Below are positions 33,978-59,802 of a DNA stretch of 64,000 bases, one piece after another. How positions within the stretch are numbered: the first letter of the stretch is position 1; every line of letters starts with the position of its first letter. The notes under the pieces are model-generated. The model ran no database searches. It had not been told where the DNA came from and saw only the letters and a program-made list of their open reading frames with translations. The position numbers and the translations under genes are program-made. Source of the DNA: Paracyclopina nana (lineage: Eukaryota > Arthropoda > Copepoda > Cyclopoida > Cyclopettidae). The DNA lies in contig JAGUCH010000002.1 in NCBI GenBank assembly GCA_019096065.1, positions 942,501 to 1,006,500 on the forward strand. Reading direction: 5' to 3'.

Positions 33978-34368
33978 ATGAAAGCCATCAAGGCAGAGGC
34001 CCTAGTGTCCCACCCCGAGGGAGGTTCCCAGTACTCCTCCGGAAGTGGCAGCAATAGCAACAATTATGTCTCAGATTACTATAGCAGTGGCCAAAGGAGA
34101 CTTCCCATGTCCGATTACTACTATGCCAATAATGCCAGGTCCGGATATGGCCACGGGGGCCATGGAGGCTGCTGTTGTTGTGATGGCAAGGGGGGCTCAG
34201 GGGGTCTCCTTGGGGGTGCAGGGGGGTTGGGGGATGCTGGCCTCTTGGCGGCAGGAGCAGCTGCAGTTGCCCTGCTCTACACTGCCATCACCATGGGAAG
34301 ACGAAGGAAAAGAGCCACCATTGATGACAATGCTGGAAATCGGATCATGGAAGATCTTCTTTGGCAAG
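33978..34368 (+). CDS. variable cassette V1 (alternative first coding exon)
   Basis: First of 22 related cassettes. Its 130 residues run from ATG to a phase-1 donor (CAAG|GTAGGA). The N-terminus is Ser/Tyr/Gly-rich (SDYYYANNARSGYGHGGHGG) with CCCC, then GLLAAGAAAVALLYTAITM as the hydrophobic helix and MGRRRKRA as the basic motif, ending RIMEDLLWQ before the split Gly codon. It lacks the CC-x-x-V-x-DP motif of V5-V16. No signal peptide is visible. Joining to the exon at 57615 keeps the frame. Function unknown. Confidence 0.75.
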
Positions 34369-34800
34369 GTAGGAAAAACACATACAAGAGCGATGGCATA
34401 TTTTTCAAAAAAGCTGCCTTGGAGCTGGGCAAAGCAACTTTGAAGGCTTGCGATACTTCCAATGCCAAATCAGTTGGAATCAATATTTTGTTAATGAGCA
34501 CAATTCTCATATACGCTAAGGTCAAAAGAGCTAAGTTGAGTTGTGATTAAATCTAAGTTTATAATAGGTCACCAATTGACTTAAAAATATTTTTTTTATC
34601 GCTCTTGCAAATCATACTTAATTTGATGTTTAGTGAATGTTGAGCTGTCATTCCTATGGCCTTAAAGAAAATGAGAAATGTGCTCATTACAATAAGATTT
34701 GTTCCAATTGATTCAGAGCTTCATGAACAACAAGCCTTTAAAGTTGCTTTGCTCAGCTTTCAGCAAGCAAAATTGAAAACATGACAACACACTATAAGCC

Positions 34801-35180
34801 AGTGGAGGGACAAACTTTTTCGTTAGATGGCGCTTTTCAAGCAAGTACTTTTGGAAAAACTATCACACGCATAACTTGTCATGTGATTATGGGCGGCAAT
34901 TAGATTGGCTGATTGGCGGAACTAGGCTAGATAAATTTGGTTTCAATAGTGAAAGGCTTAGATATTTGCGTACTTAGCAAATGGTGTTATGGCTTGAAAG
35001 GGTGCCGTTTGGCATGTAGGTTATGTCATGTTAATGAAGTTATCGGCACAAGTGCTCGAAAAGCGAAACAATTGCCAATCCAGGATCGTCTTTGTATCAC
35101 AGCCATGTCAAATGTACTTGCTCAAGTTGCCGCACTAGATGGCGCTGTGAATCTAGCGACATTTCGCCTTCGGCTTATAT
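34801..35180 (+). mobile_element. dispersed 380-bp element, copy C
   Basis: Full-length match to copies at 15074 and 24361. Its right end lies 48 bp before the ATG of cassette V2, so it forms that cassette's immediate 5' flank. Confidence 0.8.
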
Positions 35181-35228
35181 ACACCGTATCTATGAACCTG
35201 GGGTAGTTCAAGAAGAGGATTTGCCATT

Positions 35229-35472
35229 ATGCCGTATTTGAATGACTTGTATGCGGCTGGAAGTGGATCAGGGTATGGAGGAGGGCATGGTGGTGGTGGG
35301 TGTTATTGTGGGAAAAATGACCAAGGTGGACTGGGAGACCTTGGCCTTTTGGCCGCTGCTGGAGCGGCCTTCTTCCTCCTTTACCAAGCCATCACAATGA
35401 TGGCCAGGAGGAAGAGGGAGAACACCAATGGCAATTATCTTGCTGATAATATCTTTGGCACTCTTTGGAAAG
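35229..35472 (+). CDS. variable cassette V2
   Basis: 81 residues. Gly/Tyr-rich start (GSGSGYGGGHGGGGCYCGKN), helix LGLLAAAGAAFFLLYQAITMM, basic ARRKRE, tail DNIFGTLWK, then donor AAAG|GTAGGC in phase 1. Closest to V1 in its central Gly-rich segment and tail. Its 5' flank is a dispersed repeat copy. Confidence 0.75.
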
Positions 35473-35777
35473 GTAGGCACTCAACCCAAAAAGAGTACAT
35501 TTTCTAAATAACAATTAACTTGACATTTCAAACTAATTTTTTCAAAAATATTTATGAAAATTTTGGGCTAAAAAATGAGTGAGTTCATGGTATTACGTAA
35601 TGCCAAGGTACCTATTTCAACATCCTCTTAAAAGCCATAAAATAATTGACTTAGGCAGCATTGACATCACCAACCACAATTATCTTTCTAAAAATATGAA
35701 TGTCTGATCTAAGAGAGTCATACAAGGCTTAGAGAGGTTTAATTTTTTAGCATGAAATGTAGCAGGTTTGCGCTTCA

Positions 35778-36102
35778 ATGGTTCAAAGTAGAGAAAAGTG
35801 TGATGCTACAAGTTTTCACTTTGAAGTTTATCACAACTTTCTCTCTTGGAGATCAGTTGACAAAATGCGTCATTTCAGCAAACAATTGTGCTACTGTCCT
35901 TCTCCTGGCAATCAAATTGACAGATCTGATATGCAGTCAAATCTGCTCACAACTGTGAGCCAACTTTTGGGAGTGGCCACAGGACTCATAACAGCCTACA
36001 ATTTTGCAATTGGCAGGCGAAGGAAAAAGAGAAAAAGAAGAAATGTTAACTTTCAAAGCATTCACAATTTGTTCACACTACAAGAATGTTATGTTCCTCA
36101 AG
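35778..36102 (+). CDS. variable cassette V3 (divergent)
   Basis: 108 residues to donor CAAG|GTACAA, phase 1. The N-terminus lacks the Gly/Tyr-rich region; CYCPSPGNQIDRSD precedes a weak helix (TVSQLLGVATGLITAYNFAI) and a long basic stretch GRRRKKRKRRN. The start could instead be the internal Met of MRHFSKQL. Membership rests on helix-basic-donor order and phase, so it is the least certain single-exon cassette. Confidence 0.55.
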
Positions 36103-37649: not shown

Positions 37650-38565
37650 AGTTCAGTTATGGCCTGGTGATAAGTTTGTGGCACTTGAGTGCCATCACAA
37701 ATGACTTCTCTTGCTGTAACACTTTTAAGGTTCAACATCATTGATCTGAACAGGGTCAAGTGATAAGTTTGCGGCACTTTGTGTGCTTACAATTGACTTG
37801 TTGTGCTCTCAAGAGTTAAAGGTTCAACATCAATTACCTGAACAGAGACAAGTGTTAAGTTTACAGCACTTAGTGCGCCTACAATTGACTTGTTTTGCTG
37901 TTCATCGTTAAAGGATCAACATCAATGACATGAACAGAGACAAGTGTTAAGTTTGCGGCACTTGAGTGCCAGTTGTTAAGCGTTAAAGGTTCAACATCAA
38001 TGACATGAATAGAGACAAGTGTTAAGTTTGCGGTACTTGAGTGCCAACACAATTGACTTCTTTCGCTGTAACACTTTTAAGGTTCAACATCATTGATCTG
38101 AACAGGGTCAAGTGATAAGTTTGCAGCACTTGAGTGCCAGTTGTTAAGCGTTAAAGGTTCAACATCAATGACATGAACAGAGACGAGTGTTAAGTTTGCG
38201 GCACTTGAGTGCCAGTTGTTAAGCGTTAAAGGTTCAACATCAATGACATGAATAGAGACAAGTGTTAAGTTTGCGGTACTTGAGTGCCAACACGATTGAC
38301 TTCTTTCGCTGTAACACTTTTAAGGTTCAACATCATTGATCTGAACAGGGTCAAGTGATAAGTTTGCAGCACTTGAGTGCCAGTTGTTAAGCGTTAAAGG
38401 TTCAACATCAATGACATGAACAGAGACGAGTGTTAAGTTTGCGGCACTTGAGTGCCATCACAACTGACTTATTATGCTCTCAAGTATTTAAGGTCCAACA
38501 TCGATAACCTGATCAGCGACAAGTGATAAGTTTGCGACGCTGATTGCCATTCCGGATAAGCAAGT
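37650..38565. repeat. coding-derived minisatellite downstream of a 229-aa ORF
   Basis: Units of about 65-130 bp built on AAGTTTGCGGCACTTGAGTG, GGTTCAACATCAATGAC and AGAGACAAGTGTTAAG. The same words (AGTTTGCGGCACTTGAGTGC, GTCCAACATCAGTG) occur once at 38714-38775 inside the adjacent ORF, so the array appears to derive from that gene's 3' coding end. Confidence 0.8.
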
Positions 38566-38649
38566 AGTTAAGTAGCTTCTTCATACAGTTGACAAATGTT
38601 GAAAAAAATCTAAATAGAGTTAACAAAGTGTATTTGTCGCCTCTCAGTT

Positions 38650-39339
38650 TTACATGTAATCAATCATGTAGTCGGACAATCCCCCCGGAATGCCTTGCTT
38701 TGCTCGCAGGTGTTTGAGGTCCAACATCAGTGCCCCGGTGAGGGACAAGTGGTAAGTTTGCGGCACTTGAGTGCCATTCCGGATGGCTTGGAGCAGATCA
38801 TGGCCGGCCTTCATGTATTCCATTTGCGATGCCAATCCACATTGCCACTTCTTGTTCACAATCTCGAAATCATCCTGGAGATCTTCAGTGAGCCACAGCA
38901 AGGCCACGGCGATTTTCTTCGCTAGGAAAGCCTCGCCAAAGGCTCGGTTCAATTCTGAATTTCTGCACTGGGAGCAGTGGCAGAAATCAAAATGGCGGCC
39001 TTGCTCAATGTCAAAATAGATGACATGGTCCTCAATGGGCCAGCCTTCAAAAGGGGAGCATTTTTTGGCGGAAAACAGGTAGATGACGTAATTGTCATCG
39101 TGGAAGGGGCATTCGGGGCATGCACAGTAGGCCACGTGTTTACACCCCAAAAACTCCTTGGTGACCTCGTGGTAGAGGAAGGCCAGCCTCGGTTTGACCT
39201 TGTCGGTGATGGCAGCCTCAATTTGCCTCCATTGGTAGTCGATTTTCACTTGGTCCAGGCGATGCTCCACCAGATGATCCAAATGATCCAAAACTGTGTG
39301 TGGGATCAAATTGGCTGAACTGGACCCAGAGAAACCCAT
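38650..39339 (-). CDS. single-exon ORF, Cys-rich protein of unknown function (229 aa)
   Basis: Uninterrupted ATG-to-TAA frame of 229 codons, opposite in strand to the surrounding array. I do not recognise the family. There are two CxCxxC motifs (C72-A-C-P-E-C77 and C120-H-C-S-Q-C125) plus C66 and C94, suggesting metal binding. The N-terminus MGFSGSSS fits an N-myristoylation pattern. There is no signal peptide or membrane helix. It may be a retrogene or a nested gene. Its last third is the apparent source of the minisatellite downstream. Sequence balance and sustained openness support coding status, but expression is untested. Confidence 0.65.
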   Translation of the reverse strand: MGFSGSSSANLIPHTVLDHLDHLVEHRLDQVKIDYQWRQIEAAITDKVKPRLAFLYHEVTKEFLGCKHVAYCACPECPFHDDNYVIYLFSAKKCSPFEGWPIEDHVIYFDIEQGRHFDFCHCSQCRNSELNRAFGEAFLAKKIAVALLWLTEDLQDDFEIVNKKWQCGLASQMEYMKAGHDLLQAIRNGTQVPQTYHLSLTGALMLDLKHLRAKQGIPGGLSDYMIDYM

Positions 39340-39390
39340 TTTGCTACTGACATTGTCATTGGAGTACCCTTTTGAAGGGTGAAGAGACGC

Positions 39391-41384: not shown

Positions 41385-42327
41385 ATGGGCAATGCTAATT
41401 GTGGGGCCAAGAGGCGGGCAGCTGCGGCGGCGGCGGCGGCAGATAGGCGGGCCGGTTTGGCGGCGGCCGGGTCATCATCAGCTGACGCGATGACAGCTGC
41501 AAGTTCAGACTTGTCTGCCGCCCAATCATCGGGCTACGGCAGTCCTGGATACGTCTATGCCATGATGTGTCCTGAGGGGATTGATCAGGATATCGCAATG
41601 TTGGCCACAGCGGCCGCTTTGGCCGTTGGCATCTATGTTGTTTACAGGTTATTTCCCGCTTTTTTTTTAACTTAAATTTCGGGCCTGTTCAGCTGCTTTT
41701 TTCGGCCGTTACTAGGCGAAAACGCAAAACTTCAGCTAAAAAAGAGTTGCTAGAATACGGCCGAAAGTGGCTAAGCAATCGAAAAATAGCGACAAAAGGC
41801 GATAATTTTTTGGTAATATTGCCAATATTTGAACAGGTGAACCGGGCTTTAAAAGGTGCTTTTTAAAAAAATCCCAAATTGCAAGCTTTGTGAATTTCTG
41901 AATTTGGGCTTTTCAGCCCATTTTCTAATCCATTAAGATTTTTTTTTATAAAACTGTAAACATTGAAGAATTGTCATATTTCAAACTTGCCAGCAAAATA
42001 GGTTTTTTTAATTCTGAAATAATGAAAAAAAACCGTTACTTTTTCAAACTTCCCTAGAAAGCTTGCATTTTTAACGAAAAGTCCAGCAAAGCATTACATG
42101 TCACCAATTTCAAAAAAAACTCAACTGAAAATTAGCGCTTTTTCTGTTTCTTGTAAATTGAAATCAATTGAAAATTTCTCTCACATAGATGAACGCCACA
42201 TTAATTTTGGGTCCGTTTCTTAAAAATTTGTTTAGGCAAATAACCTTACAAACAATGGGCCGTAAAAAGCGATCTCTTGATGTTCCCACTCCTGTTAACG
42301 ACAAAATCATGGATTTTATCTATTTGG
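41385..42327 (+). CDS. variable cassette V4 (two exons)
   Basis: Exon a 41385-41647 and exon b 42236-42327; the junction AG|G is phase 2 and gives YVVYRQITLQTMGRKKRS. The protein starts MGNANCGAKRRAAAAAAAAD, with Gly2 and Cys6 (possible lipidation), then an Ala/Ser-rich stretch, SSGYGSPGY and MCPEGIDQDIAMLATAAALA leading into the helix. Tail is DKIMDFIYL with donor TTGG|GTAGGT in phase 1. CPEGI is shared with V17, 11 kb away. Only V4-V6 have an intron between helix and basic motif. Confidence 0.7.
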
Positions 42328-43379
42328 GTAGGTACCAACAAAAAAAGAAAATAACGGTTTTTTTCGTTACGGGGATCTGCTGGTTGATGTTGCCTCGTTA
42401 TTTTTGCTGCACCCTCAATTAAAAAAATCTCTCTTTGCTTATTGTGACCGCTGATTCATGATTGGGTAAGTAACCAAAAAAAAGAACCGTAATTAGAAGT
42501 AATTTGTAGGCTTGCACCTAATTTAGGTTGACAAATTATTTTTTGCATCACACTTTATCATAGTGTAGATAATTAGAGTTTTTGTACCAACAGATGGCGC
42601 CAAAATTGAGTCTTGTTGCTTCTATATTTCAATTGAACTACAGTTAAGCCAATTATTGCAAAAAAAGGCGCGCGAAAACGGTTTTTAACGGTTTCTTGTA
42701 AATATGGTGAAATAACGGTTCCTCATGCCCAATTGAGGCCGAGAATTCCTATTCAATTCTTTGGGCTTGAAATTTCAGCTTAGTCACGGACTTTTTCTTC
42801 TGTTCGTTTTTTTTTTATGGGAAACCCTCTAATTATGGCAACAACGGTGATTTTTCGTTTAGCACCTGTTGCTGTTCCGCTTTTCCACCGTAATGCATTG
42901 TCACGAGTTGGCAATCATTTTTCATCATCATCTTCATTTCTCATCGCTTAATTGAAGGGTGTTTTTCGTTGCACTTTTTTTCTGCGTGCCAAAATTGAAA
43001 TGCAAACTTCAAAGAGAAAATTAAAAATAGTAAAAATGGCCATTTATTATATGCCGAAATCTAGAGCTTTTTCAATTGAATTTTAATGAAGATTTTTCTC
43101 GGCAAATTTCAAAATTACATTTAGCATTCATTTTTGTCCTCAATTTCCTTGACTGGAAAATTCATTTTTTTGTTTATTATGATTTTGGATTTGGAGCAGA
43201 TGAGCTGGGCCGTGCTGTGACGTTTTCTGGTCTGATAACAAAATGCATCACTTTACCTTTTTCCAAAGTGCTGACAAATTATCATCATCAATCAATCTTT
43301 CGCATCGTTGCAAAAATTGGCGAATTTTTCGCGAGGCTGAGTTGTCTCGACTCAGTCTCTATTTTGATCTCAGTTTGCC

Positions 43380-43934
43380 ATGTTTCCTGAAAGAAGCGAC
43401 ACTGAGGAAAAAGCTGGTGGCAATTTCATCGGGCAAGCTTCGAGTGGTTACGGTGGTTACGGTGACCACTCGAGTTACGGTGGTTATGATGACCACATTT
43501 CTTATGGCAGCTACAGCCACCAAGAGTGTTGTCCACTTGTGATTGATCCAATGTTATTGGTAGCCCTTTTGGGCTTTCTGGCGGCAGCCACCTACTTTTT
43601 GCAGTAATTATTCAAATGTTATTTTAGAGTCTGCTCCAAAAATAACAAGAGTAAAATAATCATTTTTATGACGAAAAAACAATTATCAAAATTATCAAAA
43701 TTCATATATGCAGTAAATTTTGGGAAATTTTGTTTCGGAATTATTTTTCAAAAAAGTGCAAAATCGTTAAAACTCGGCAAAAATTGAAGAAATATTTGAA
43801 GGAAAATTCAATCAAAACAAAAATTAAGTAAGATAATCTTTTTTTAAGGATTGCAATAACAATGACTTTGGGGAAAAAGAAGCGAAGGAAGCGAAGCTTC
43901 AAAGTTGAAAATCACTTCTGCTTGCTTCTTCAAG
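43380..43934 (+). CDS. variable cassette V5 (two exons)
   Basis: Exon a 43380-43603, exon b 43849-43934. Junction CA|G gives YFLQIAITMTLGKKKRRKRS. Gly/Tyr-rich region (SSGYGGYGDHSSYGGYDD), then ECCPLVIDP, the membrane helix LLVALLGFLAAATYFL, the basic motif and tail HFCLLLQ. Phase-1 donor CAAG|GTATTT. Without the intron the frame would stop immediately after the helix. Confidence 0.72.
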
Positions 43935-44649: not shown

Positions 44650-45671
44650 ATGTCGGTCGAAAAGTTGCTCAGTGGTCAATTCGAGGATTTTTTGTTCGCG
44701 AAATCGCAGTGCGAAAATCGCGTGTGGAAGTGGCGGCAAAAGCGCGAGGTTTGGGACAATTTGGCCAGCCCTAGTCAAGGCTACGAAGAGTGCTGCCCTC
44801 TCGTGATTGACCCGTTAACCTTTCTTGCCCTTATGGCCTTTATTGTGGCCGCTACGTACTTCCTAAGAGGTCTTTGCAAAAAATTCCCCTCAATTTTCGC
44901 GTGGCTTTTGAAGTGCTCATCAAATTTAATTGTTGCCAAATCGTGACTGGCGCATTTTCCTTCTCTTGGAAATAACGGAAAAAGTGCAGCTTTTCGTTAC
45001 TTTTCATTACTGGTCGACCAAATTTCTGTTTTTAGGCCATTTTCAGCCATTTTTTGCATTTTTGACCCAATAATTTAGGATATTTCTAGTCTACCAAATT
45101 TCAGTTTCTGGGCCTTTTTCAGCTACTTTTTGCATTTATGATTTTTCCAGTCGACCAAATTTCAGTTTCTAGGCCTTTTTCAGCCATGTTTTGCATTTTT
45201 TATTTTTCCAGTCGACCAAACGCTTCTGTCCTCTTATGCATATGTAGAGAAATCCCGCGCGCCAAATGCCGATTGTGAGACATCCCCTTTTCAAATGATT
45301 TTTATCCTTGGCTTTTTTGTGCCAAAAAAACAAAACAAAACACTTTTGATGGTTGATGGCTAATTTTGCCTTTTAAAAAGTACATTTTATATAGGCTATT
45401 TCAGCCTTAAGAGCTAATTTTTATTGGCTATTTCTAGCTAAGAAATGGAATCTAAAAAAAGAGTATTTGATTGATACTTTTCAGTTGTAAAGAGGTTGCG
45501 CGACTTTGTTTACCTTTTTTTCGCGGAAGATTTCCACCTTTAAAAGCCACGTGTTTTTCCCGCTCAAAGTTGCCATAACCATGAACATTATGGGTAGAAG
45601 GAGGAAAAGGTCTGACATTTCATCTGCATCCAGTACAAAAAGTCATAATGAAGTCATCTTGCTATTAAAAG
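44650..45671 (+). CDS. variable cassette V6 (two exons)
   Basis: Exon a 44650-44869, exon b 45570-45671; junction G|TT is phase 1 and yields YFLRVAITMNIMGRRRKRS. The N-terminal region is unusual: charged and aromatic (ENRVWKWRQKREVW) instead of Gly/Tyr-rich. It is followed by ECCPLVIDPLTFLALMAFIV. Tail NEVILLLK, donor AAAG|GTAAAA in phase 1. The first in-frame ATG is used; the frame opens upstream with no better ATG. Confidence 0.68.
45005..45230. repeat. about 65-bp tandem repeat in the V6 intron
   Basis: CCAGTCGACCAAATTTCAGT and GGCCTTTTTCAGCCA recur three to four times between V6 exons a and b. Confidence 0.7.
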
Positions 45672-45839: not shown

Positions 45840-46125
45840 ATGGAGCAGTATTTGGCTTCCATGGATTTTCCTATAGGTGACCGGCGTGCTGGTGGCTTTT
45901 TTTCAAAACAATCAGCTGATAACGACATTTTGGCGGCGGGCAGCTCGGGCTATGGCAGCAGCTGCTGCCCGCCCGTGATTGACCCGTTGCTCTTGATAAC
46001 GCTGCTGGCGTTTTTGGCAGCTGCCACATTTTTGCTCCAAATGGTCATCACTATGACCATCATGATGATGAGAAGGAAGAGAGGGGCTGGCACACCCCAA
46101 GAGTTCCACTTAGCAGCCCTCCAAG
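45840..46125 (+). CDS. variable cassette V7
   Basis: 95 residues, one exon. SSGYGSSCCPPVIDP, then LLLITLLAFLAAATFLLQMV as the helix, ITMTIMMMRRKRG, and tail EFHLAALQ before donor CAAG|GTAAAA, phase 1. The Gly/Tyr-rich stretch is short. The post-helix TIMMMRRKR segment is shared with V9, implying duplication. Confidence 0.78.
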
Positions 46126-46436
46126 GTAAAAAATAATCAGCTGACTTTACTACTTTATAAGTGAGCTAACAGCTGATTTCTTTAGAAGTAAATAGTCAGC
46201 TGACTTCATCAGAAGTAAACAATCAGCTGACTTTACTACTTTATAAGTGAGCTAACAGCTTATTTCTTTAGAAGCAAGCAATCAGCTGACTAGACTACTT
46301 TAGAAGTAAACAATGAGCTGACTTCTTAAAAGTAAACAATCAGCTGACGATTTAAGAAGTAAACAATCAGCTGACGATTTAAGAAGTAAACTATCAGCTG
46401 AAAACGCACTCAACAATAAGCTGACATTCAGCTGAT
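46126..46436. repeat. GTAAACAATCAGCTGAC tandem array 1 (V7-V8 spacer)
   Basis: AGTAAACAATCAGCTGAC and variants recur about ten times at 25-50 bp spacing. Each unit joins a forkhead-like GTAAACA to a CAGCTG E-box. The first unit begins directly after the V7 donor. Confidence 0.85.
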
Positions 46437-46780: not shown

Positions 46781-47081
46781 ATGAGCTCTTATGATGAAGA
46801 CTATGATTATTACCCTAACTATAGCTATGAAAGCTCAAGTCAGCAAAATCAGAGAGTTTCCTCAGATTTAGTGGGAGCCGCAAGCGGGGGCGGGGGGGAA
46901 TGTTGCCCCCACGTGGTTGACCCCCTTTTATTTGTGGGGGCTTTGGCAGGAGCTGCTGTGGCTGTTTTCCTATTGAGGCAAGCCATCACCATGAATTTGG
47001 GACGTAGGAAAAGGCGGAAAAGGCAGGCCAAGTTTTGCTACTTGGATGACTGCCAAACAGCCCAGTGTGCCATAAATGCAG
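46781..47081 (+). CDS. variable cassette V8
   Basis: 100 residues. Acidic, Tyr-rich start (MSSYDEDYDYYPNYSYESSS), a Gly run, ECCPHVVDP, helix LLFVGALAGAAVAVFLLRQA, ITMNLGRRKRRKRQ. The tail is distinctive, with three cysteines (CYLDDCQTAQC) before donor GCAG|GTAACC, phase 1. A five-codon upstream frame starts at 46761. Confidence 0.78.
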
Positions 47082-47164: not shown

Positions 47165-47625
47165 GGTGTTAACAAATAGCTGACATGGATTGTACACAAA
47201 CAGCTGACGAAAATTGTAATCAATTGGCTCAGTTAAATTATTAACTATCAGCTGACCTAAATTGTAATCAATTGGTTCAGTTAAATTATTAACTATCAGC
47301 TGACCTAAGATGTAGACAATCAGCTGACCTATGGTGTAAACAATTAGCTGACCTTAAATGTGAACAATCGCTGACCTAAATTGTGCACAATTAGCTGACT
47401 TTATAGAGTTTTGTAAAAATCAGCTGACTTTATAGTTATGTAAATAATCAGCTGACTTTATGAGTATGTAAATAATCAGCTGACCTAATATGTAAACAAT
47501 CAGGTCGGTTGAATTGTCAATGATCAGCTGAATTATAAATTATGAACGGTCAGCTGACTCTAAAATATAAACAATCAGCTTACCTAAATGGTAAACAATC
47601 AGCTGACTCAGCATTGCTACCAGAA
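47165..47625. repeat. GTAAACAATCAGCTGAC tandem array 2 (V8-V9 spacer)
   Basis: At least twelve copies of AACAATCAGCTGACCTA-type units at about 28-45 bp spacing, same orientation as array 1. An 80-bp block with TGTAATCAATTGG is itself duplicated inside. Confidence 0.85.
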
Positions 47626-47837
47626 GCAATGGCGCATCTGGAGCTTATGATAAGGATTAATTGCGGACAACACTTTCTATTTTCTTCTCATAGATGATTT
47701 GAGGTCATTGAAGTGCAAAAAATAAAATTATATGGCGTCACCAAAAAATTAAGGGGAAAGTGTTGTAATAGCAGAGGGCGCTTTGCCAAATGGCTTTTTT
47801 GAAAGTGTTGGTCAGTTGCTGCCGGTGATTCAACGTA

Positions 47838-48142
47838 ATGACAGCCAATTTGGTGAAGCTGAAAAAACCCTTTGATTTGCTGAGGGAGCTTCTTCCAGTG
47901 GTTATGGACATTCTGGTTATGGCTCATCTGGTTACGAGTCCAGTAGCCACTATGGCGGATATTCATCTAGTTATGACCAGTGCTGCCCTCTGGTGGTCGA
48001 TCCGCTCACATTCACTGCATTATTAGGCTTTTGGCTGCTGCAACTTATTTGCTGCAAACTGTGATCACCATGACTATAATGATGATGAGACGTAAAAGAT
48101 CCGCTAAAAGTGACCAAAATTTGACAGCAATTATTAAACAAG
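47838..48142 (+). pseudogene. variable cassette V9, frameshifted
   Basis: All cassette parts are recognisable but lie in three frames: ATG 47838 (MTANLVKLKKPFDLL), then from about 47882 a Gly/Tyr-rich part with SSYDQCCPLVVDPLTF, then from about 48030 AAATYLLQTVITMTIMMMRR and KRSAKS. Each shift fits loss of one base; the second lies in a TTTT run of the helix. Donor CAAG|GTAAAT is intact. It is either a decayed cassette or carries homopolymer base-calling errors. The tail is AIIKQ. Closest relative is V7. Confidence 0.65.
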
Positions 48143-48299
48143 GTAAATTCAGTCCATCACTTTTCAACTTTTCTGGTAATTTCTTTTTAAAATCGTGTCA
48201 ATGTCTTCTGTTAGTTTACGATTTCACTTTAGGCTAGCTTTTTGTTTAGTTCAAAAATTAGTTGCTTAATTTTACAGCCATCTGTTTGTTTAATTTTTC

Positions 48300-48565
48300 T
48301 GTCGAGTGTTTATTTACTTATAAAAGTCAGCTGTTTGTTTACTTTTGAAGTCAGCTGTTTGTTTACTTGTAAAGTCAGCTGATTGTTTACTTTTAAAGTC
48401 AGCTGATTGTTTACTTTTGAAGTCAGCTGATTGTTTACTTTTAATGTCAGCTAAATATTTACTTTTATTCTCAGCTATTTGTTTACATTAAAAACCACCT
48501 CCTTTCAATGTCAGCTGTTTGTTGATCTTCAAAGTCAGCTGATTTTTAAGTTTACAAGTTGCCTG
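48300..48565. repeat. tandem array 3, inverted orientation (V9-V10 spacer)
   Basis: AGTCAGCTGATTGTTTACTT units, the reverse complement of arrays 1, 2 and 4, about nine copies at 23-33 bp spacing. Confidence 0.85.
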
Positions 48566-48810: not shown

Positions 48811-49084
48811 ATGTTGCGAAGTAAGGACAAAAACGATTTGATTGTGTCTTTGGGCTCCAGTGGTTATGGCCACACAAGTTATGGCCATGACAGTTACGGT
48901 CATGGATATTCATCCTATGACTACAATTGCTGTCCTTTAGTAATTGACCCTTTGACATTTTCTGCCATCATTGGATTCATAGCAGCTGCCACTTATTTGC
49001 TCAGAACTGTCATTGTTATGACCACTTTCACAATGGGGAAACGGAAACGTGAAGCTTTAGCTTATCCGAATTTCCTCACATTAG
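48811..49084 (+). CDS. variable cassette V10
   Basis: 91 residues. MLRSKDKNDLIVSL, then SSGYGHTSYGHDSYGHGY, NCCPLVIDP, helix LTFSAIIGFIAAATYLLRTV, then IVMTTFTMGKRKRE and tail YPNFLTL. Donor TTAG|GTAAAT, phase 1. Clean single exon of the CCPLVIDP subfamily (V5-V10). Confidence 0.8.
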
Positions 49085-49139
49085 GTAAATATTAAGAAAG
49101 TTAATAAAAACCTTGACTTTCTACTTAAATAAACAAGTT

Positions 49140-49290
49140 GAATTGCATAGTAAACAAACAGCTGAATTTCAAAGTAAACAAACAGCTGAATTTCAAAGTA
49201 AACAAACAGCTGACTTCTAAAGTGAATAAAGACTTTTTTGCGTTTAAAAAATAAACTAAAGATTTCAAAGGAAAAATCAGCTGATTTGCA
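49140..49290. repeat. tandem array 4 (V10-V11 spacer)
   Basis: AGTAAACAAACAGCTGAATT is repeated three to four times at about 30 bp spacing, forward orientation. Confidence 0.8.
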
Positions 49291-49596: not shown

Positions 49597-49828
49597 ATGG
49601 GGAACCTTTTAGGAGGTTCCTCAAATGGAAGTGGGGGAGGTTATGGTTACGATTCTTACGGACTTGAAAAGCAGTGTTGTGATGGAGTCGTGGACCCAAT
49701 TTCACTTTTGGTCACTCTTGCAGCCATCGCAGCTTTGACACTTTTTCTGAGGCAAGCTGTCATTGACTTCATGATCATTGCTGGCCGAAAGAAGAGAGAA
49801 ACATTGTTTCATGGCATCTTTATGGAAG
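49597..49828 (+). CDS. variable cassette V11
   Basis: 77 residues from ATG 49597 (MGNLLGGSSNGSGGGYGYDS). QCCDGVVDP, helix ISLLVTLAAIAALTLFLRQA, then VIDFMIIAGRKKRE replaces the ITM segment. Tail LFHGIFME, donor GAAG|GTAAAA, phase 1. First member of the CCDAVVDP subfamily (V11-V16). From residue CCD onward it is nearly identical to V12. Confidence 0.8.
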
Positions 49829-50750
49829 GTAAAAATCGATAAAAATCGATATTTGATTTTAAAAAAGTTGGGAAAATGGCAGTTGCTTTTCGTTTGAGAA
49901 ATCAAATGAAAACAGTTATAAATTGGCTGGTATGAAAAAATCCATTGTTGTTTCAAAGACCGTTTCTGGTGAAAGCTCACAGATTGGAAAGTTTCATTTT
50001 TTTCTGGAGGCATCGTGTACTGCAATTTTAGAAGCTGAGTGAAAATTCAGGTCGGAGCAATAGAGATGTACAGTTATGATTTTGACAGACATTAGACCCC
50101 GAGTTCAGTTAATTGTTGCAGTTAGAGGTGGAGACTCCTCAGTTTTTTGAGTGTCGAATGTCAGGCTATGGAGCATCCGGATACAACCAAGGACTGCAGT
50201 GTTGTGATGCAGTCGTCGACCCAATTTCACTTTTGGTCACTCTTGCTGCCATCGCAGCTTTGACACTTTTTCTGAGGCAAGCTGTCATTGACTTCATGAT
50301 CATTGCTGGCCGAAAGAAGAGAGAAACATTGTTTCATGGCATCTTTATGGAAGGTAAAAATCGATAAAAATCGATATTTGATTTTAAAAAAGTTGGGAAA
50401 ATGGCAATTGCTTTTCGTTTGAGAAATCAAATGAAAACAGTTATAAATTGGCTGGTATGAAAAAATCCATTGTTGTTTCAAAGACCGTTTCTGGTGAAAG
50501 CTCACAGATTGGAAAGTTTCATTTTTTTCTGGAGGCATCGTGTACTGCAATTTTAGAAGCTGAGTGAAAATTCAGGTCGGAGCAATAGAGATGTACAGTT
50601 ATGATTTTGACAGACATTAGACCCCGAGTTCAGTTAATTGTTGCAGTTAGAGGTGGAGACTCCTCAGTTTTTTGAGTGTCGAATGTCAGGCTATGGAGCA
50701 TCCGGATACAACCAAGGACTGCAGTGTTGTGATGCAGTCGTCGACCCAAT
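49700..50750 (+). repeat. 525-bp recent tandem duplication
   Basis: The segment from the V11 3' half through the spacer and the V12 5' half repeats from V12 to V13 with very few differences (one apparent substitution over more than 300 bp of spacer). It generated V12 and V13. Confidence 0.9.
50158..50353 (+). CDS. variable cassette V12
   Basis: 65 residues from ATG 50158: MSGYGASGYNQGLQCCDAVV, then the ISLLVTLAAIAALTLFLRQA helix, VIDFMIIAGRKKRE, LFHGIFME and donor GAAG|GTAAAA, phase 1. It has one of the shortest N-terminal regions in the array. Upstream in-frame codons lack ATG and stop just before 50113. Confidence 0.78.
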
Positions 50751-50878
50751 TTCACTTTTGGTCACTCTTGCTGCCATCGCAGCGTTGACACTTTTTCTGA
50801 GGCAAGCTGTCATTGACTTCATGATCATGGGCGGTCGAAAGAAAAGAGAAACATTGTTTCATGGCATCTTTCTGGAAG
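50683..50878 (+). CDS. variable cassette V13
   Basis: 65 residues, near-identical to V12. Differences cluster after the helix: IIAG becomes IMGG and FME becomes FLE, and the 3' flank then diverges. Phase-1 donor GAAG|GTAAAA. Confidence 0.78.
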
Positions 50879-51014: not shown

Positions 51015-51279
51015 ATGGGAAGTAGCCTGAGTGGACTTCTTGGTGGTCTTGGGGGCTCTAGTGGTAATGGAGGTCAAGGGTACGGTCAAATGGGTTCTTA
51101 TGGGTACGGGCCTGAATTGCAGTGTTGCGATGCAGTGGTGGACCCCATTTCACTGTTGGCCACCATTGGTGCCATTGCAGCTTTGACTCTTTTTCTGAGG
51201 CAAGCTGTCATTGACTTCATGATTGTGGGTGGTCGAAAGAAGCGAAGAGCAGCAACGTTTGGTAGCATATTGCTGTTAG
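51015..51279 (+). CDS. variable cassette V14
   Basis: 88 residues. MGSSLSGLLGGLGG (Gly2, Ser6: N-myristoylation-like), a Gly/Asn/Tyr stretch, ELQCCDAVVDP, helix ISLLATIGAIAALTLFLRQA, VIDFMIVGGRKKRRA, tail FGSILLL and donor TTAG|GTACGT, phase 1. Confidence 0.8.
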
Positions 51280-51490: not shown

Positions 51491-51755
51491 ATGGGTAACA
51501 GTTTGAATGGGATTCTTGGAGGTAATGGAGGAGGAGGAGGTGGTAACAATGTAGGCTATGGAGGTGGCTCCTATGGGTACGGGCCTGAATTGCAGTGTTG
51601 CGATGCAGTGGTGGACCCCATTTCACTGTTGGCCACCATTGGTGCCATTGCAGCTTTGACTCTTTTTCTGAGGCAAGCTGTCATTGACTTCATGATCATG
51701 GGTGGTCGAAAGAAGCGAAGGAAGCGACAAAACATGGGGGAAGTGTTCATCGAAG
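51491..51755 (+). CDS. variable cassette V15
   Basis: 88 residues. MGNSLNGILGGNGGGGGGNN, YGYGPELQCCDAVVDP, the same helix as V14, IMGGRKKRRKRQ, tail MGEVFIE and donor GAAG|GTATGA, phase 1. An in-frame upstream ATG at 51413 would add 26 residues; MGNS is preferred because V14 and V16 start alike. Confidence 0.8.
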
Positions 51756-51938: not shown

Positions 51939-52203
51939 ATGGGAAATTCCCTCAATGGCATCCTTGGAGGAGGTGGAGGTGGTAATAATAATGGGGGGTA
52001 TGGAGGCTCGCCCACTTATGGGTACGGGCCTGAGTTGCAGTGTTGTGATGCAGTGGTGGACCCCATTTCACTGTTGACCACCATTGGTGGCATTGCAGCT
52101 TTGTCTCTTTTTCTGAGGCAAGCTGTCATTGACTTCATGATCATGGGTGGTCGAAAGAAAAGGCGAAGAAGCCTAGGCCATACCCAGGGCCTTTTGATGC
52201 AAG
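51939..52203 (+). CDS. variable cassette V16
   Basis: 88 residues. MGNSLNGILGGGGGGNNNGG, ELQCCDAVVDP, helix ISLLTTIGGIAALSLFLRQA, IMGGRKKRRRS, tail TQGLLMQ. Donor CAAG|GTTAGA has T at +3, weaker than the other cassettes, but the phase is kept. Confidence 0.78.
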
Positions 52204-52249: not shown

Positions 52250-52541
52250 ATGGACTTGATGGGAACTAGGTCAGCTGTTGTTGAGGCTCCAGTGCTGAGC
52301 AGAGTTGACCGACAAGCTGACCTAGTGGGCGCTTATTCGGGGTATGGCAGCTACTGCCCTGAGGGTATCCCCATAGAGACAGCCATTTTTGCCATTCTTG
52401 GAGCCTTTGGAGTGGCCTTTGGTGTCCTTTACAGGGCTGTCACTCTCATAACTGGAGGCAGGAGGAGGAAAAAGAGGGAATCTCCACCCAAAGACCTTTG
52501 GGAGCAAGTCAGCTACAAGCTAGCTGACATTTTCTGGTGGG
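52250..52541 (+). CDS. variable cassette V17
   Basis: 97 residues. MDLMGTRSAVVEAPVLSRVD, YSGYGSYCPEGIPIETAIFA, helix ending FGVLYRAVTLIT, GGRRRKKRE, and tail YKLADIFWW before donor GGG|GTAATG, phase 1. It lacks CC-DP; CPEGI links it to V4 despite twelve cassettes between. The 46-bp spacer before it is the shortest and contains GAAAGATCTCTCT. Confidence 0.78.
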
Positions 52542-52579: not shown

Positions 52580-52782
52580 TCTTTATGCGGTGTTCATCTA
52601 TAAAAAATCTTGAAAACCTACTAGCCTTTCCAATTCAGTTTTGGGGACTGAAAGCGAAATAGGTTGTAGTAAATCAAGACTCACTTCTTGAATATTTGTT
52701 TTGGGACTGGTTTTTTGCCGAAAAATAGTTACTCCGCGACAAAAATGAAAATGTCGTGCTAAAGATGAACATCGCATTAAAA
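52580..52782. mobile_element. short MITE-like element overlapping the V18 start
   Basis: Left TTTATGCGGTGTTCATCTA and right AAGATGAACATCGCATTAAA are imperfect inverse repeats of the TGTGGCGTTCATCTAC family. The right repeat contains the ATG of V18 (MNIAL). Confidence 0.5.
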
Positions 52783-52987
52783 GGATTGAGAGGCATGGAC
52801 AATAGTGCAAATTTTAAGCTCAGGCCAAAGAGAAGTAGTGGAAGCAGTTGTGGTGATATTTGGGTGGATGGAGACTTGGTTTTTGGCGCTTTTGCGGCTG
52901 CTGGAGCGGCTTTGGCCTATTTCTTGTACACAACCATCACCATGATGGGAAGAAGGCGGAAAAGAAGGACTCTTTCGCCCTGGCTAG
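52765..52987 (+). CDS. variable cassette V18
   Basis: 74 residues. MNIALKGLRGMDNSANFKLR, PKRSSGSSCGDIWVDGDLVF, helix GAFAAAGAALAYFLYTTITM, MGRRRKRR, tail LSPWL, donor CTAG|GTAACG in phase 1. It lacks the Gly/Tyr-rich stretch. The start could also be the internal Met of MDNSAN. Confidence 0.75.
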
Positions 52988-53021
52988 GTAACGAAAATTA
53001 ATTAAGTAGTGAAAGGTCTCT

Positions 53022-53412
53022 CTTGGCTCTGACGTTCATCTACACAATCTAAGATTTGCCTTTCCAATTCAGTTTTCGGGACTGAAAGTGAAGTAGCTTG
53101 AAACAAATCCAGTCTCGCAGCTCTGATATTTGTTTTACAAAAGATTTTTTCCAAAAAAATTGTCTCTGTCAACATAAATATAATATCGTCAAAACTTGAA
53201 AAATTTGTAAAAGTCTGGTCAAAACATGACAAAAAATAAGAATATTGTCAAATCTTGAGTTAATTAAAAATGTCGTCAAAACTTTAAAATATTGTAAAAA
53301 TGGCGTCAAAACTTGAAAATATTGCAAAAATGTAGTCAAAACTTGGCAAAAAGTGCAAATAAGGAATTTGCCAGAATTCATTAAGGTTTGTAGATGAACG
53401 TCACATTAGTTT
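53022..53412. mobile_element. MITE-like element overlapping the V19 start
   Basis: Left TGACGTTCATCTACA is the exact inverse of right TGTAGATGAACGTCA, about 390 bp apart. The V19 ATG lies inside the right repeat. The interior holds TTTTGACGACATTTT-like repeats. Confidence 0.6.
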
Positions 53413-53694
53413 CAAAAAGTGCTATGAGTTATGGTCATGAAGTGGTGTACATCAAGCAGCCTTCAAAATCCTCACTTGGCCTCGATTTGACCTTGGACAT
53501 TTGTCCGGATTTGATTTTGGCAGCAGTGGCCGTAGCTGGTGCAGCTTTCTTCTTTCTCATTTACACTGCCACAACAATGGCTGGTAGGCGTAGGAAAAAG
53601 AGGGCGCTTTTGTGCCACCCAGGAGACCACGTGTTGGCTCAAATCCACACCTCCGCAGCTGTGTGCCACTCACCGCACCATTTAGACTTTTTAG
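53394..53694 (+). CDS. variable cassette V19
   Basis: 100 residues. MNVTLVSKSAMSYGHEVVYI, LDLTLDICPDLILAAVAVAG into helix AAFFFLIYTATTM, AGRRRKKRA, and the longest tail after the basic site, about 37 residues with His/Cys (CHPGDHV...CHSPHHLDFL). Donor TTAG|GTAAAC, phase 1. An internal Met at 53424 is an alternative start. DICPDL is shared with V20. Confidence 0.76.
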
Positions 53695-54475: not shown

Positions 54476-54585
54476 CAAAAAAGCAAATTTCACTTACGCA
54501 AAGAAAAACTGTTTGCCTTTGAAGCTATCAAAGTGTTTCGAGGTTGTCGGCGGCGGCCTCTGGAGGTCATGGGTCATATTCGGGT

Positions 54586-54778
54586 ATGTCTTCGGGTAGC
54601 AGTTGCTTCACCATCGACATTTGTCCGGACTTGCTAATTGCCGCAATTGCCGCAGCTGCTGCGGGTGCGTTTTTCTTCATCTACCAAGCCATAACTATGG
54701 CGGGAAGAAGAAGAAGAAGAAAACGGTCTGCTTCAAGTGTTCCGGATGCTTCACTTGTCTTTGACCTCCTTTCTCTCG
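54586..54778 (+). CDS. variable cassette V20 (start uncertain)
   Basis: From the first in-frame ATG it gives 64 residues: MSSGSSCFTIDICPDLLIAA, an Ala-rich helix AAIAAAAAGAFFFIYQAITM, AGRRRRRKRS, tail DASLVFDLLSL. Donor TCGG|GTAAAT, phase 1. The codons just upstream still read LSAAASGGHGSYSG, the usual Gly/Tyr-rich region, but hit TGA at 54520 with no ATG. The true start may be in an unseen 5' exon, or may have been lost with the adjacent MITE insertion. Confidence 0.65.
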
Positions 54779-55518: not shown

Positions 55519-56017
55519 ATGTATTCACCCAGTAACAAAATGGCGGCTGTGGGTTCCTCTAATTACCGCAACACCAACTACAACAGCCGCAACACCAAGC
55601 AAAATACCAACTATGATTATTACGACTATTATGACTATGATAACAGCAATCAGCTGATTCAGCCGCAACAGCAGCAGCAACAGCTGCGCAGAAACAATCA
55701 GCTGATGCAGAAAAACAACAACAATTTTAACCGGCGCATGAGCAACTTGAAGACCGCCGCCTCTCACGGCGGCTACGGTAGTTATAGCGGCGGTTATGAC
55801 GAGTGCGATAACGGCATCAGCATTGGGCTCTTGCTTACCGCCGCTCTTGGTATCGCCGTCATGTTTTATACCCTGTATACCAAAATTACCATGGCGGGGC
55901 GGCGGCGGCGGCGGCGGAAACGGCTCAGCGAGACGGAGGAACTTATAGAGGACATTAACGAGCAACTGAACCCGTTACAGTTCACCGTTAACCAACTCAC
56001 TGACTTTTTGTACAGCG
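55519..56017 (+). CDS. variable cassette V21
   Basis: 166 residues. The long N-terminus is Asn/Tyr/Gln-rich (NYDYYDYYDYDNSNQLIQPQ then poly-Gln), then SHGGYGSYSGGYDECDNGIS, helix IGLLLTAALGIAVMFYTLY, TKITMAGRRRRRRKRL, and a long acidic tail LSETEELIEDINEQLN...LTDFLYS. Donor AGCG|GTAAAT, phase 1. Codon use is more GC-rich than in other cassettes. Confidence 0.8.
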
Positions 56018-56093
56018 GTAAATAACGTTACTATATAATACCACATGGGTCACAGTGAAAGATCTTCATCGGCAACAAAGTTAGTTCAGTATA

Positions 56094-56667
56094 ATGGCGG
56101 AAACTGCTCAAGTTGAGCCGAGAATTGGTTATAATACGTTACTCATGGCCAACCAAGGTTTAACCGGTACCGAAGCATCCGCCGGCTACGCCAATACCAA
56201 CGGCATTGGCTATCTTGACTATTTCGACTATTCGGACTTGAATACCCAGAATTATAACGGCCTCAAGTCGGCGCCAGCAGCCGTTACAACCAATCAGCAG
56301 CCGTATTATTCTAATTTGTTACGGCGCCGTAACGGCGGCCTGGCCGGCCTTGGCTTGTCTGGCCAGCGGCTCAAGTCAGCTGACGCCGTTGGGCTGGCCA
56401 GTAGCGGTTACGGCCATAGTGGTTACGGCGGCGGTGGCGGCCACTCAGGTTACGGCGGCGGTGGCTACGCCGGCCCGGTCTCAGTTGTGAGCGGCTACGG
56501 GCCCTCGCAGCAGTGTGATCAGGGGATTAACCCGCTGTTGGCCTTGTTGACTTTGGCTGGCGCTGCAATAGGCTTCTACTTCATTTACATTAAGCTCACC
56601 ATGTCTGGTGGGCGTGCCCTGAAGGGCGGGAGCACTTTTGAGAATATTGCTGAGATGATGTGGATCG
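56094..56667 (+). CDS. variable cassette V22 (proximal, no basic cleavage motif)
   Basis: 191 residues, the longest and the nearest to the constant exons. Tyr/Asn-rich start, GLASSGYGHSGYGGGGGHSG, QQCDQGINPLLALLTLAGAA, helix ending GFYFIYIKLTM. The position of GRRKR reads SGGRALKGGST, so the multibasic motif is absent. Tail FENIAEMMWI, donor ATCG|GTAATT, phase 1. If the motif is a cleavage site, this isoform would escape it there. Confidence 0.8.
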
Positions 56668-56739
56668 GTAATTCTAAATATTATCCAAAAATATTACGCA
56701 TATTTCTTTCTTCCTTAAGATGATAGCAATGATAATATT

Positions 56740-57365
56740 TTAGTCAATATTACAAGAGATATTAACAATGACATTTCCATAGATATTAGTAATGATATTA
56801 CCATAGATATTAGCAGTGATATTACCATATACAGTCTGTCCGTTCAAAATTGGACGGTACGGGAATCTAAACTTTTGGTCACATATGTCAAGAAATACAG
56901 GACTTTTAAATGATATCGTTGGAAAGATTGAGCCTTTTTCCATCTTTTTTGTAAAAGTAGGAAAAATCAATTGAAAGAGGAAAAAACCGGGAAAATTCAA
57001 TTTTCCCTAGGCAACCCAGAAAATTGTCACAAAAAAACTGATGCATCATTTATTTTTTGGAGTCACGCGAAATTCACAATAATATTTTTCATTTCGTCAG
57101 AAAACAAAAAAGATGTCCAAAGGTTCAAGCTTTCCAACGATACCCATTAAGCCTCAAAATTCATGAATTCATAACATAAACTTTTGATTCCCGCACCGTC
57201 CAATTTTGAACGGTCAGACGGTATATTAGCAGTGATATTAACATAGATATTAGCGATGATATCACTATTTATATTAGCAATGATATTACTATACTTATTA
57301 GAAATGATATAACATTAGATATTACTATTTATAGTAGCAATGATACTACCAGAGATATTTGCATT
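56740..57365. repeat. GATATTA-rich array with nested MITE (56828-57226)
   Basis: ATAGATATTAGCAATGATATTA units fill the intron between V22 and the constant exons. They are interrupted by an element whose ends ACAGTCTGTCCGTTCAAAAT and ATTTTGAACGGTCAGACGGT are inverse repeats of more than 40 bp. Confidence 0.85.
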
Positions 57366-57614
57366 TTCTTTAAGATCACTTTCCATTCTAGAAATGTCAC
57401 ATGTTCTAATGATCATGAGTGTTATCAAAAGTTTGGATATTTTTCAGAAATATCAATAATATTGGAGATATTATCATCAATATTGATACTATTATTTGTG
57501 ATAATAATTATTTTACCACTGATATTGTTAATCATTGATCTAGAGGGAATTCAACAGCAGATCCCTTTGTTATATCATCCTTAATATTTCTAATAATATT
57601 TTACTTTCTCATAG

Positions 57615-59802
57615 GTTTGGAGGAGTTTGAGGACAAAGTGGACAAAATCGCGAATGGACAAGAGGACGACTCATGGATAGGCCAGCTGTACAACCAATTC
57701 AGCTCTACCTTGGGCATTGATGGGTCCAAGATCGACGAGTCTGAGCTGGGCTCCAAGGATGGACTGGAGCCTCCAATCCTGGATGAAACTTGGGGACTAG
57801 AGGACATTCACAAGCTCCATGATGAAACTCCAGAAGATGGTAAAATAAAATAAAAAAAATATTTCTTTATTTTGCCATAACTCTGAGTCTGTTTTAGTCT
57901 CGGCCAATGAGCCAAGAAGTAGGACCAAGAGAGACAATGGAGTGGAACCGGATGATCTCAAGAATGAAGTGGAAGAGGATGATGAGATCATCAAGGGTCT
58001 CACTGGAGAGTCCAAATGCAAGGCCATTTTCTGGAAGTGCATGGGTGGAGTGGCATCCAAATCACTCCATTACATGAGTGAACCTGGAGGAATCACCGGG
58101 TAAAAAACATTTAAGTTTGGTATTTTCAGCTCGGAAAGTTTTTTCCCAAGTTTTCTGAAAGTTATTGTGACATGTTGGCGCCCCTTTGTTTTACCCAGGT
58201 TGAGTTTATGTCGTCATCAAACATTAACTGCCTTACCACCTATGTTAAAAAATCGAAGGTGTTGCTGAAAATTGGTGTTTTTGATTTTACTTATGCGTAA
58301 GCCAGTTAGTTAATGTCACATAATGACATAAACACGATGTTGATTAAACGTACAAGTTTATGTTGTCATGTAACATTGACTGCCTTACCACCTATGTAAA
58401 AAATCAAAGACAGCTGCAAATTGTTTTTTTCAATTTTGCTTATGCGTCAAGGCAGTTAATGTCACATAATGACATAAACACGATGTTGATTAAACGTACA
58501 AGTTTATGTCGTCATGTAACATTGACTGGCTTACCACCTATGTAAAAAATCGAAGGAGACAGCTGCAAATTGGTGTAGTCGATTTTGCTTTGGTGTCAAG
58601 CCAGTTAATGTCATACAATGACATAAACTCGATGTTGATTAAACGTCGAGTTTATGTTGTTATACTATAACGTTTAACTGCCTTACCACCTATGTAAAAA
58701 ATTGAAGGTGACTTTTGCAAATTGGTGTTGTTGATTTTACTTATGCGTAAGCCAGTTAATGTCACACAATGACATAAACACGATGTTGATTAAGCGTACA
58801 AGTTTATGTCGTCATGTAACATTGACTGCCTTACCACCTATGTAAAAATTGAAGGTGACAGCTGCAAATTGGTGTAGTCGATATTGCTTTGGTGTCAAGC
58901 CAGTTAATGTCAAATAATGACATAAACTCGATGTTGATTAAATGTCAAGTTAACGTTTAACTGCCTTACCACCTATGTAAAAAATTAAAGGTGACTTTTG
59001 CAAATTGGTATAGTCGATTTTGCTTTGGCGTCAAGCCAGTTAATGTCACATAATGACTTAAACTCAATGTGGATTAAATGTTGAGTTTATGTCGTCATGT
59101 AACATTGACTGCCTTACCACCTATGTAAAAAATTGAAGGTGACTTTTGCAAATTGGTTGTCGATTTTACTTATGCGTAAGCCAGTTAATGTCATATAAGG
59201 ACATAAATACGATGTTGATTAAACGTACAAGTTTATGTTGTTATATAACATTCAACTGCCTTACCACCTATGTAAAAAATTAAAGGTGACTTTTCCAAAT
59301 TGGTGTTGTCGATTTTTTTTTGGCGTCAAGGCAGTTAATGTCACATCATGACATAAACTCAATGTTGTTGAAGCGTTTAAGTTTCACTGAGGGTTATTTT
59401 TTCTCAGAATTTCTGGTTGGGCGTTGATGCAGTTCAGCTGCATTTTGAGCTAGTTGAGGATTTTCCAACTTCTTTTTCAGGGCTCTCAAGAAAATGATGT
59501 TCAGGGTGGCTTTCCATGGGGGCATTGGCAATGTCTGGAATGCCCTGATGACCATTCCGGAGGCTCGACAGGCGAAGAGGTGCATGAACAAGCAGGATGA
59601 TTGCATGGCCTTTGAGGTGCTCAGGCAAGAGGTGGAGACATTGGGAGAGGATGGCCAAGTGTTTGTGCCAGAGACCCAGAAAAGGCTCCTCATCAACCCT
59701 GAATTTGTGGAAGGCATGGATGCCTCAGATGGCTCTGAAAAATTCACGCCTGAAGACCAAGCCCTGGAAAACTCACTCTTGGGAGAAGAAGATGAAGCAT
59801 AA
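57615..59802 (+). CDS. constant 3' region shared by the cassettes (3 exons, 249 residues)
   Basis: Exons 57615-57839, 57898-58099 and 59481-59802. The first acceptor (TCTCATAG|GT) needs a phase-1 donor ending in G, which every cassette supplies; the junction is always Gly followed by LEEFEDKVDKI. No usable ATG opens exon 1, so it cannot be a gene by itself. Numbering from that Gly: acidic region 1-83, dibasic RTKR at 84-87 (proprotein-convertase-like), acidic 88-114, then CKAIFWKC (Cys116, Cys123), LKKMMFRVAFHGGIGNVWNA, RCMNKQDDC (Cys177, Cys184), and an acidic C-terminus ending GEEDEA. Four cysteines suggest an oxidising, lumenal or extracellular location. Family not recognised. AATAAA at 60018. 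Confidence 0.8.
58105..59417. mobile_element. satellite-bearing element in the last constant-region intron
   Basis: Reverse-orientation relative of 16085-17011. Shared outer words are CCCAAGTTTTCTGAAAGTT at left and AAGTTTCACTGAGG...CAGAATTTCTGGTTGGGC at right. The interior holds about eight to nine units of 110-150 bp with GCCTTACCACCTATGTAAAA and AAGCCAGTTAATGTCA. Confidence 0.8.

Follow-up and report, generated by a model that had tools for sequence, protein, structure and literature searches.

An apparently undescribed protein family encoded by a predicted multiple-first-exon locus in the copepod Paracyclopina nana

Does a row of related coding exons, followed by a single set of constant exons, encode one protein with many alternative beginnings, or many separate genes? 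This question is raised by an array of cassettes in a 64,000-nucleotide stretch of the genome of the copepod Paracyclopina nana, called the window here (C2:942501-1006500 of a 92 Mb, 10-contig genome; positions without a contig name count within the window). A first-pass annotation, made from the sequence, had described 22 related cassettes on one strand and had proposed that they form one locus giving about 20 isoforms with varied N-termini and a common C-terminus, a proposal to which the joined proteins of relatives now lend support. We consider it likely that this is a multiple-first-exon locus, in which one of about 21 cassettes would be spliced to the single constant set, yielding isoforms of a small membrane protein. 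This reading is favored because nearly all cassettes end in in-phase donors and share one constant set, because identical constant halves bear different N-termini in relatives, because the cassettes of the window group with those of relatives by type, and because a second array in the same genome repeats the plan, with one relative, P0129, pairing its cassette and constant types.

The array and its single constant set

All 22 cassettes, numbered c1 to c22 in order, lie on the plus strand between 33978 and 56667, and 21 of them are intact. These 21 have a continuous frame and end in G followed by GT, which constitutes a phase-1 donor, so that splicing to the constant exon would keep the frame by way of a glycine codon. 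Cassette length varies between 65 and 191 amino acids, and the coding sequence of c4, of c5 and of c6 is divided between two exons. The first ATG is found at 33978, and the donors after 34368, 35472 and 36102 (G|GT, phase 1) coincide with the cassette ends annotated initially. The remaining cassette, c9 (about 47836-48142, plus strand), lacks a continuous open frame and is spread over frames, with two hidden Markov model (HMM) pieces in different frames, and hence looks like a broken, frameshifted cassette. Besides the split c4-c6 and the broken c9, the initial annotation needs amending at c20, whose open frame lacks a clear ATG, with 54586 being the first ATG in frame. The c20 cassette probably has a 5' exon further upstream.

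Beyond the cassettes, a single set of three constant exons on the plus strand closes the array, with the coordinates that had been given for it. Constant exon A (57615-57839) carries the acceptor at 57615, constant exon B (57898-58099) holds an R-T-K-R site and the first C-x6-C, and constant exon C (59481-59802) holds the second C-x6-C and the stop codon, whose end is 59802; joined together, they encode 249 residues ending in the stop. A genome-wide search with the constant half revealed this set and one paralogous set 3.1 Mb away, with no second constant half in the array. Thus, the cassettes have no 3' partner of their own, as had been annotated, and the private 3' exons that would have made them separate genes are not seen, since no other constant-like exon is present in the array.

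The mutual relatedness of cassettes was examined using leave-one-out HMMs, from which the tested cassette, or in the case of c11-c16 all six, was omitted, with the 1586 six-frame open reading frames (ORFs) of the window as the target. Twenty of the 21 cassettes were recovered at an E-value of 7.6e-5 or better, with c3 weak (E 0.072), and hence the likeness of cassettes is more than chance. The top ORF beyond 33.5-57 kb or on the minus strand reached E 0.14, and an HMM built from all 21 matched one plus-strand non-cassette ORF within the array (42952-43083, E 0.12). When the 92 Mb genome was searched with two single cassettes, 4 and 11 matches were obtained at E<=10, counts which are lower bounds, as divergent cassettes may escape; 14 of these 15 matches fall within this array or the second array described below, and the remaining match had E 0.6.

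The second array (L018/L019, C2:4111604-4115820) is smaller and has the same design with a four-exon constant half. Its constant-half paralogue (C2:4115004-4115820) is 43% identical in the best stretch, and within 60 kb upstream at least four cassettes could be found by the cassette HMM, each with an in-phase donor of the same phase, two of the four lacking an ATG before the helix. The cassette of relative P0129 is of the second-array type (tree support 99/99), and its constant half, judged by eye, is also of that type.

Cassettes and constant halves in relatives

A protein-database search with the constant half, which the first-pass annotation had recommended, returned 113 proteins at E<=1. 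An organism is named for just one relative, Tigriopus californicus LOC131891730 (P0021, "uncharacterized protein isoform X3"), with 51% identity over 95% of the constant-half query. It has the same constant half with a c21-like N-terminus, and the record name implies several isoforms; it is known here from a single isoform and as a protein record alone, and no paper naming it was found in the literature searched. The public predicted-protein sets of relatives carry the source label 'merc', which we take to be a marine eukaryote catalogue. Apart from P0100 and P0101, discussed below, these records seem to represent complementary DNA (cDNA), because their contigs are 1-2 kb long and the reading frame continues across every constant exon.

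The junction motif is present in 104 of the 113 relatives, with at least 20 residues ahead of it in 87. Upon grouping of constant halves by single linkage at >=97% local identity over >=100 residues, 18 groups of at least two proteins were obtained, of which 14 contain at least two cassette types, as read by eye from the N-termini, including those of the N-terminal fragments P0027, P0039 and P0052. Among the other four groups, two have one cassette, one has two c17-like variants and one has an untyped fragment. Seventeen pairs were then compared position by position, without gaps, over the constant half. In four of them, constant halves are 100% identical over 259-264 residues with different cassettes (P0016/P0017, 262/262; P0065/P0066, 263/263; P0049/P0050, 259/259; P0067/P0071, 264/264), followed by near-identical pairs (P0014/P0015, 261/262; P0036/P0044 and P0036/P0038, 258/260 each; P0010/P0012, 249/251) and further pairs with identities of 233/234 (P0125/P0126), 166/167 (P0077/P0098), 254/258 (P0040/P0046), 256/262 (P0014/P0016), 238/247 (P0007/P0009) and 221/253 (P0032/P0034). 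The low counts for P0049/P0056, P0047/P0057 and P0063/P0115 (89, 117 and 118) are as expected from a gap-shifted comparison and uninformative. Thus, as judged from predicted proteins, different cassettes are joined to the same constant half in relatives, and the joint falls where the exon structure predicts it.

N-termini that relatives carry on their own constant half have as best cassette matches c4, c6, c14 or c15, c17, c18, c20, c21 and c22; of these, the groupings of c6, c17, c20 and c21 are not among the starred ones in the cassette tree. In P0100 and P0101, a c22-type cassette reads through unspliced sequence into constant exon A. Both look genomic in origin, and their read-through indicates that a c22-type cassette adjoins constant exon A in other species too.

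The cassette tree (100 rows and 101 columns, with many forks unresolved) does not unite the cassettes of the window in one group. It requires 11 label changes, at least eight of them forced by well-supported branches; the window cassettes are nonetheless more clustered than shuffled labels (mean 19.4 changes, with 0 of 500 shuffles as low). Well-supported groups join c4 with P0017, P0006 and P0007 (100/99), c11-c16 with P0012, P0015 and P0022 (100/100), c22 with P0100 and P0101 (100/99), and c18 with P0014 (100/84, with long branches on both), while c5-c7, c17, c20 and c21 sit with relatives in less certain groups. Such grouping by type across species implies that several cassette types predate the species split, and c11-c16 include what the sequences indicate to be recent copies.

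Predicted isoforms, their topology and the choice of cassette

Based on this organization, about 21 cassettes would be usable as transcription starts; the phase-1 donor of the chosen one would be joined to the sole acceptor of the constant set, at 57615, and the message would be completed by exons A, B and C. Each cassette may have a private promoter, chosen presumably by cell or stage. An isoform would thus be small, with an N-terminus that depends on the cassette and is often rich in Gly and Tyr, one membrane helix and a basic motif, the shared part comprising an acidic spacer and then a helical domain with two C-x6-C pairs. The first-pass annotation had credited every cassette with one hydrophobic helix and a basic motif, which is largely correct: one hydrophobic peak each is present in 20 of the 21 cassettes (Kyte-Doolittle, 19 residues, >1.6), with c3 short at 1.38, and R-x-[KR]-R in 19 of 21, c10 and c22 being without it. 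In the constant half, no second hydrophobic stretch is observed (peak 0.78). Its four Cys are invariant in a 12-row alignment, whereas in a 63-row alignment two are invariant and two present at >=90%. AlphaFold yields a helical C-terminal domain with a block predicted local distance difference test (pLDDT) score of 70-91, but with a predicted template modeling (pTM) score of 0.45, and the model gave no fold match.

One of the questions posed by such a protein is the side of the membrane on which the constant half resides. The R-x-[KR]-R motif, the Arg at P4 of the last dibasic spacer site (28 of 36 non-redundant constant halves having such a site, 41 examined) and the distribution of N-x-S/T sequons, with 67 in the spacer versus 34.4 expected by shuffling (an excess inflated by related sequences) and 7 in the domain versus 23.8 expected, point to a lumenal and cleaved constant half, with which the conserved Cys are also in line. 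We mildly favor this arrangement, wherein the constant half would be cut at basic sites and cassettes would serve as alternative membrane-anchored starts of a shared released domain. Opposed to it, the spacer of this species holds no sequon. In addition, the 15-residue flank preceding the hydrophobic peak has a net negative charge in all 21 cassettes, and the flank following it a net positive charge in 20 of 21, a pattern which favors a cytoplasmic constant half. The converse orientation, with the N-terminus outside, a cytoplasmic constant half and the basic cluster as a stop-transfer anchor rather than a cleavage site, would result in a variable outer tip and a shared inner domain, and is a serious contender, if short of an even chance. 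The single hydrophobic stretch also agrees with it; at odds with it are the spacer sequon excess, the conservation of KR in >=90% of rows within a poorly conserved stretch of the 63-row alignment, and the MGN/MGS beginnings of five cassettes (c4, c11, c14, c15 and c16), which resemble myristoylated cytosolic N-termini. Much more tentatively, the variable part may not be the working part of the protein: about 20 cassettes would be membrane anchors with a convertase site, removed by proteolysis with release of the same two-disulfide domain. If true, diversity would concern the site and timing of release of one shared secreted protein, and the membrane that it is freed from.

Returning to the multiple-first-exon organization itself, several observations weigh against it. 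No common promoter motif was found, as the top 8-mers are no better than shuffles, and no enrichment of TATA-like sites is seen (TATAWA for 3 of the 22 cassettes). The c17 ATG lies 47 bp past the c16 exon end and the c22 ATG 77 bp past the preceding exon end, and the c17 start is awkward for a private promoter unless this lies in the c16 exon. Further, c1, c2, c3, c8 and c10 are without a well-supported counterpart among relatives, c1 and c2 grouping with each other only. Finally, the evidence for joining comes from proteins of relatives, and these proteins are predictions, taken to reflect cDNA from the frames on their contigs. The pentamer TCAGT occurs within 120 bp of 12 of the 22 starts (background 20.5% of noncoding positions, binomial P 4e-4), a motif picked post hoc after inspection, with c12 and c13 being near-copies and the c9 and c20 starts set by hand.

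Short distances preceding c17 and c22 would be accommodated if one upstream promoter served the array and a common non-coding leader exon, or a trans-spliced leader, were joined to each cassette, such that splicing would choose and the same isoforms would result. The absence of an ATG before the helix in c20, its late ATG aside, and in two second-array cassettes is in line with this alternative, as is spliced-leader trans-splicing, reported in calanoid copepods according to an excerpt of PMC4664967. In the same source, however, cyclopoid and harpacticoid data are reported to have yielded no such leader. No exact copy of the calanoid leader core was found in the genome, leaders of other copepod orders lying outside this search, and the 17 one-mismatch matches are to a palindrome-like pattern (reversed control, 1). 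Moreover, the best acceptor-like sites within 120 bp of each start rank at percentiles 0.04-0.96 of noncoding array positions without a general excess, which argues against a common leader with the low power of a matrix from just 10 acceptors and with c9 and c20 starts set by hand. Overall, a leader is unlikely.

Trans-splicing of separately transcribed parts is known from Drosophila mod(mdg4). A similar joining of separately transcribed cassettes and constant exons would need no long primary transcript and could suit an array with an opposite-strand ORF inside it, but it is most improbable here, since cis splicing suffices for parts that share one strand and a conventional order, the sole constant set being distal, and since the unspliced c22-type reading of P0100 and P0101 places this cassette so close to exon A in other species. 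It is scarcely credible that each cassette is a gene in its own right, with 3' exons of its own, or that most are dead duplicates, despite the broken c9 and the recent 525-bp copies c12 and c13, given the lack of another constant-like exon in the array, the 21 of 22 open frames with donors and the joining of c4, c6, c14/c15, c17, c18, c20, c21 and c22-like N-termini to their own constant half in relatives.

Known systems and remaining features

The architecture, one of multiple variable first exons, is of a kind already known, and appears real in this genome, while the family is apparently new. As suspected initially, neither half fits a family that can be named: Pfam gave no credible match, and PDB none. 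No cadherin match was found in Pfam with 17 of the 22 cassettes (four as trimmed pieces) and three full-length relatives, and cassettes and full-length relatives gave no UDP-glucuronosyltransferase domain match either. Nor is a seven-helix receptor domain seen: 20 of the 21 cassettes have a single hydrophobic peak, the constant half lacks one, and Pfam gave no match. No paper on the family was found among the top entries of long result lists, subscription papers being outside the coverage. Hence, the family is apparently undescribed.

In clustered protocadherin alpha and gamma, as described in an excerpt of PMC4978886, tandem variable exons precede one distal constant set, and splicing joins one of them to its three exons. 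The array described here shares with them the tandem variable exons, the three distal constant exons and types shared between species, but differs in having no cadherin repeats, in its cassettes of 65-191 residues, some in two exons, and in that no shared promoter element resembling the conserved sequence element (CSE) was found. Judging from a partial description, the UGT1 cluster is alike in architecture, although no glycosyltransferase domain is present here and private promoters are, in this case, putative. Insect odorant and gustatory receptor genes are arthropod examples of tandem first exons spliced to shared C-terminal exons; in the portion of PMC6175461 concerned, BgerGr60a-m comprise 13 receptors in a gene set with three shared final exons. 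In contrast to these, the cassettes have a single hydrophobic helix and match no receptor family, and most of the protein belongs to the shared half. Dscam1, also from a partial source, similarly draws arthropod isoform diversity from tandem exon arrays; its exons are internal and mutually exclusive, whereas the cassettes carry start codons and have acceptor signals at background, as measured with a small matrix. Few large alternative-first-exon arrays are known, and each of them (protocadherins, UGT1 and insect chemoreceptors) underlies a diversity system. The present locus would add another; its family matches nothing in Pfam or PDB, several of its cassette types recur across species, and the genome has a paralogous second array. 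With two such arrays here and joined proteins recurring across relatives, probably copepods, in public predicted-protein sets, expression by tissue, stage and stress can be tested using existing copepod RNA-seq.

With regard to individual cassettes, all on the plus strand, c1 (33978-34368, 130 residues) and c2 (35229-35472, 81 residues) are defined by an ORF, a phase-1 donor and HMM recovery, and c3 (35865-36102, 79 residues) is the most divergent, with the weakest support. The first exon of c4 (41385-41647) begins with MGNANCG, and its second exon is at 42236-42327; the exons of c5 are at 43380-43603 and 43849-43934, and those of c6 at 44650-44869 and 45570-45671. An open frame with a donor together with HMM recovery supports c7 (45840-46125), c8 (46781-47081), c10 (48811-49084), c11 (49597-49828), c14 (51015-51279), c15 (51491-51755) and c16 (51939-52203), and c12 (50158-50353) and c13 (50683-50878) lie within the 525-bp tandem duplication. 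The c17 cassette (52250-52541) is the best BLAST match of P0003, P0005, P0010, P0016 and P0019, c20 (54523-54778) that of P0065, P0097 and P0107, and c21 (55519-56017, starting at 55519 or 55540) that of the Tigriopus isoform. Alternative starts also exist for c18 (52765-52987; 52765 or 52795) and c19 (53394-53694; 53394 or 53424), and c22 (56094-56667) is the cassette closest to the constant exons.

Between c3 and c4, the opposite strand contains an intronless ORF of 229 amino acids (38650-39339, minus strand), with no Pfam match and no second genome copy at E<=0.001. Gaps between c7 and c11 contain minisatellites with a period of 24-27 bp centered on CAGCTG (46131-46401, 47201-47607, 48262-48493 and 49126-49213). 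An inverted-repeat-like CAGTT...RACTG element occurs between c17 and c21 at 52635, 53069, 53903 and 54877, the copies at 52635 and 53069 falling in a 106-bp repeat. A 146-bp tandem repeat (58203-59367, 7.9 copies) takes up most of the intron that separates constant exon B from C, and 3' of the constant exons an AATAAA is located at 60018-60023 on the plus strand, one of 14 in 33.5-60.6 kb and hence not specific. Further on, a neighboring gene with ShK-like domains (60050-61215, bounds set by eye; Pfam ShK E 0.0043, below the Pfam cut-off) is followed by another at 61630-62310, which by eye resembles a CHHC zinc finger (GTSF1-like) protein.

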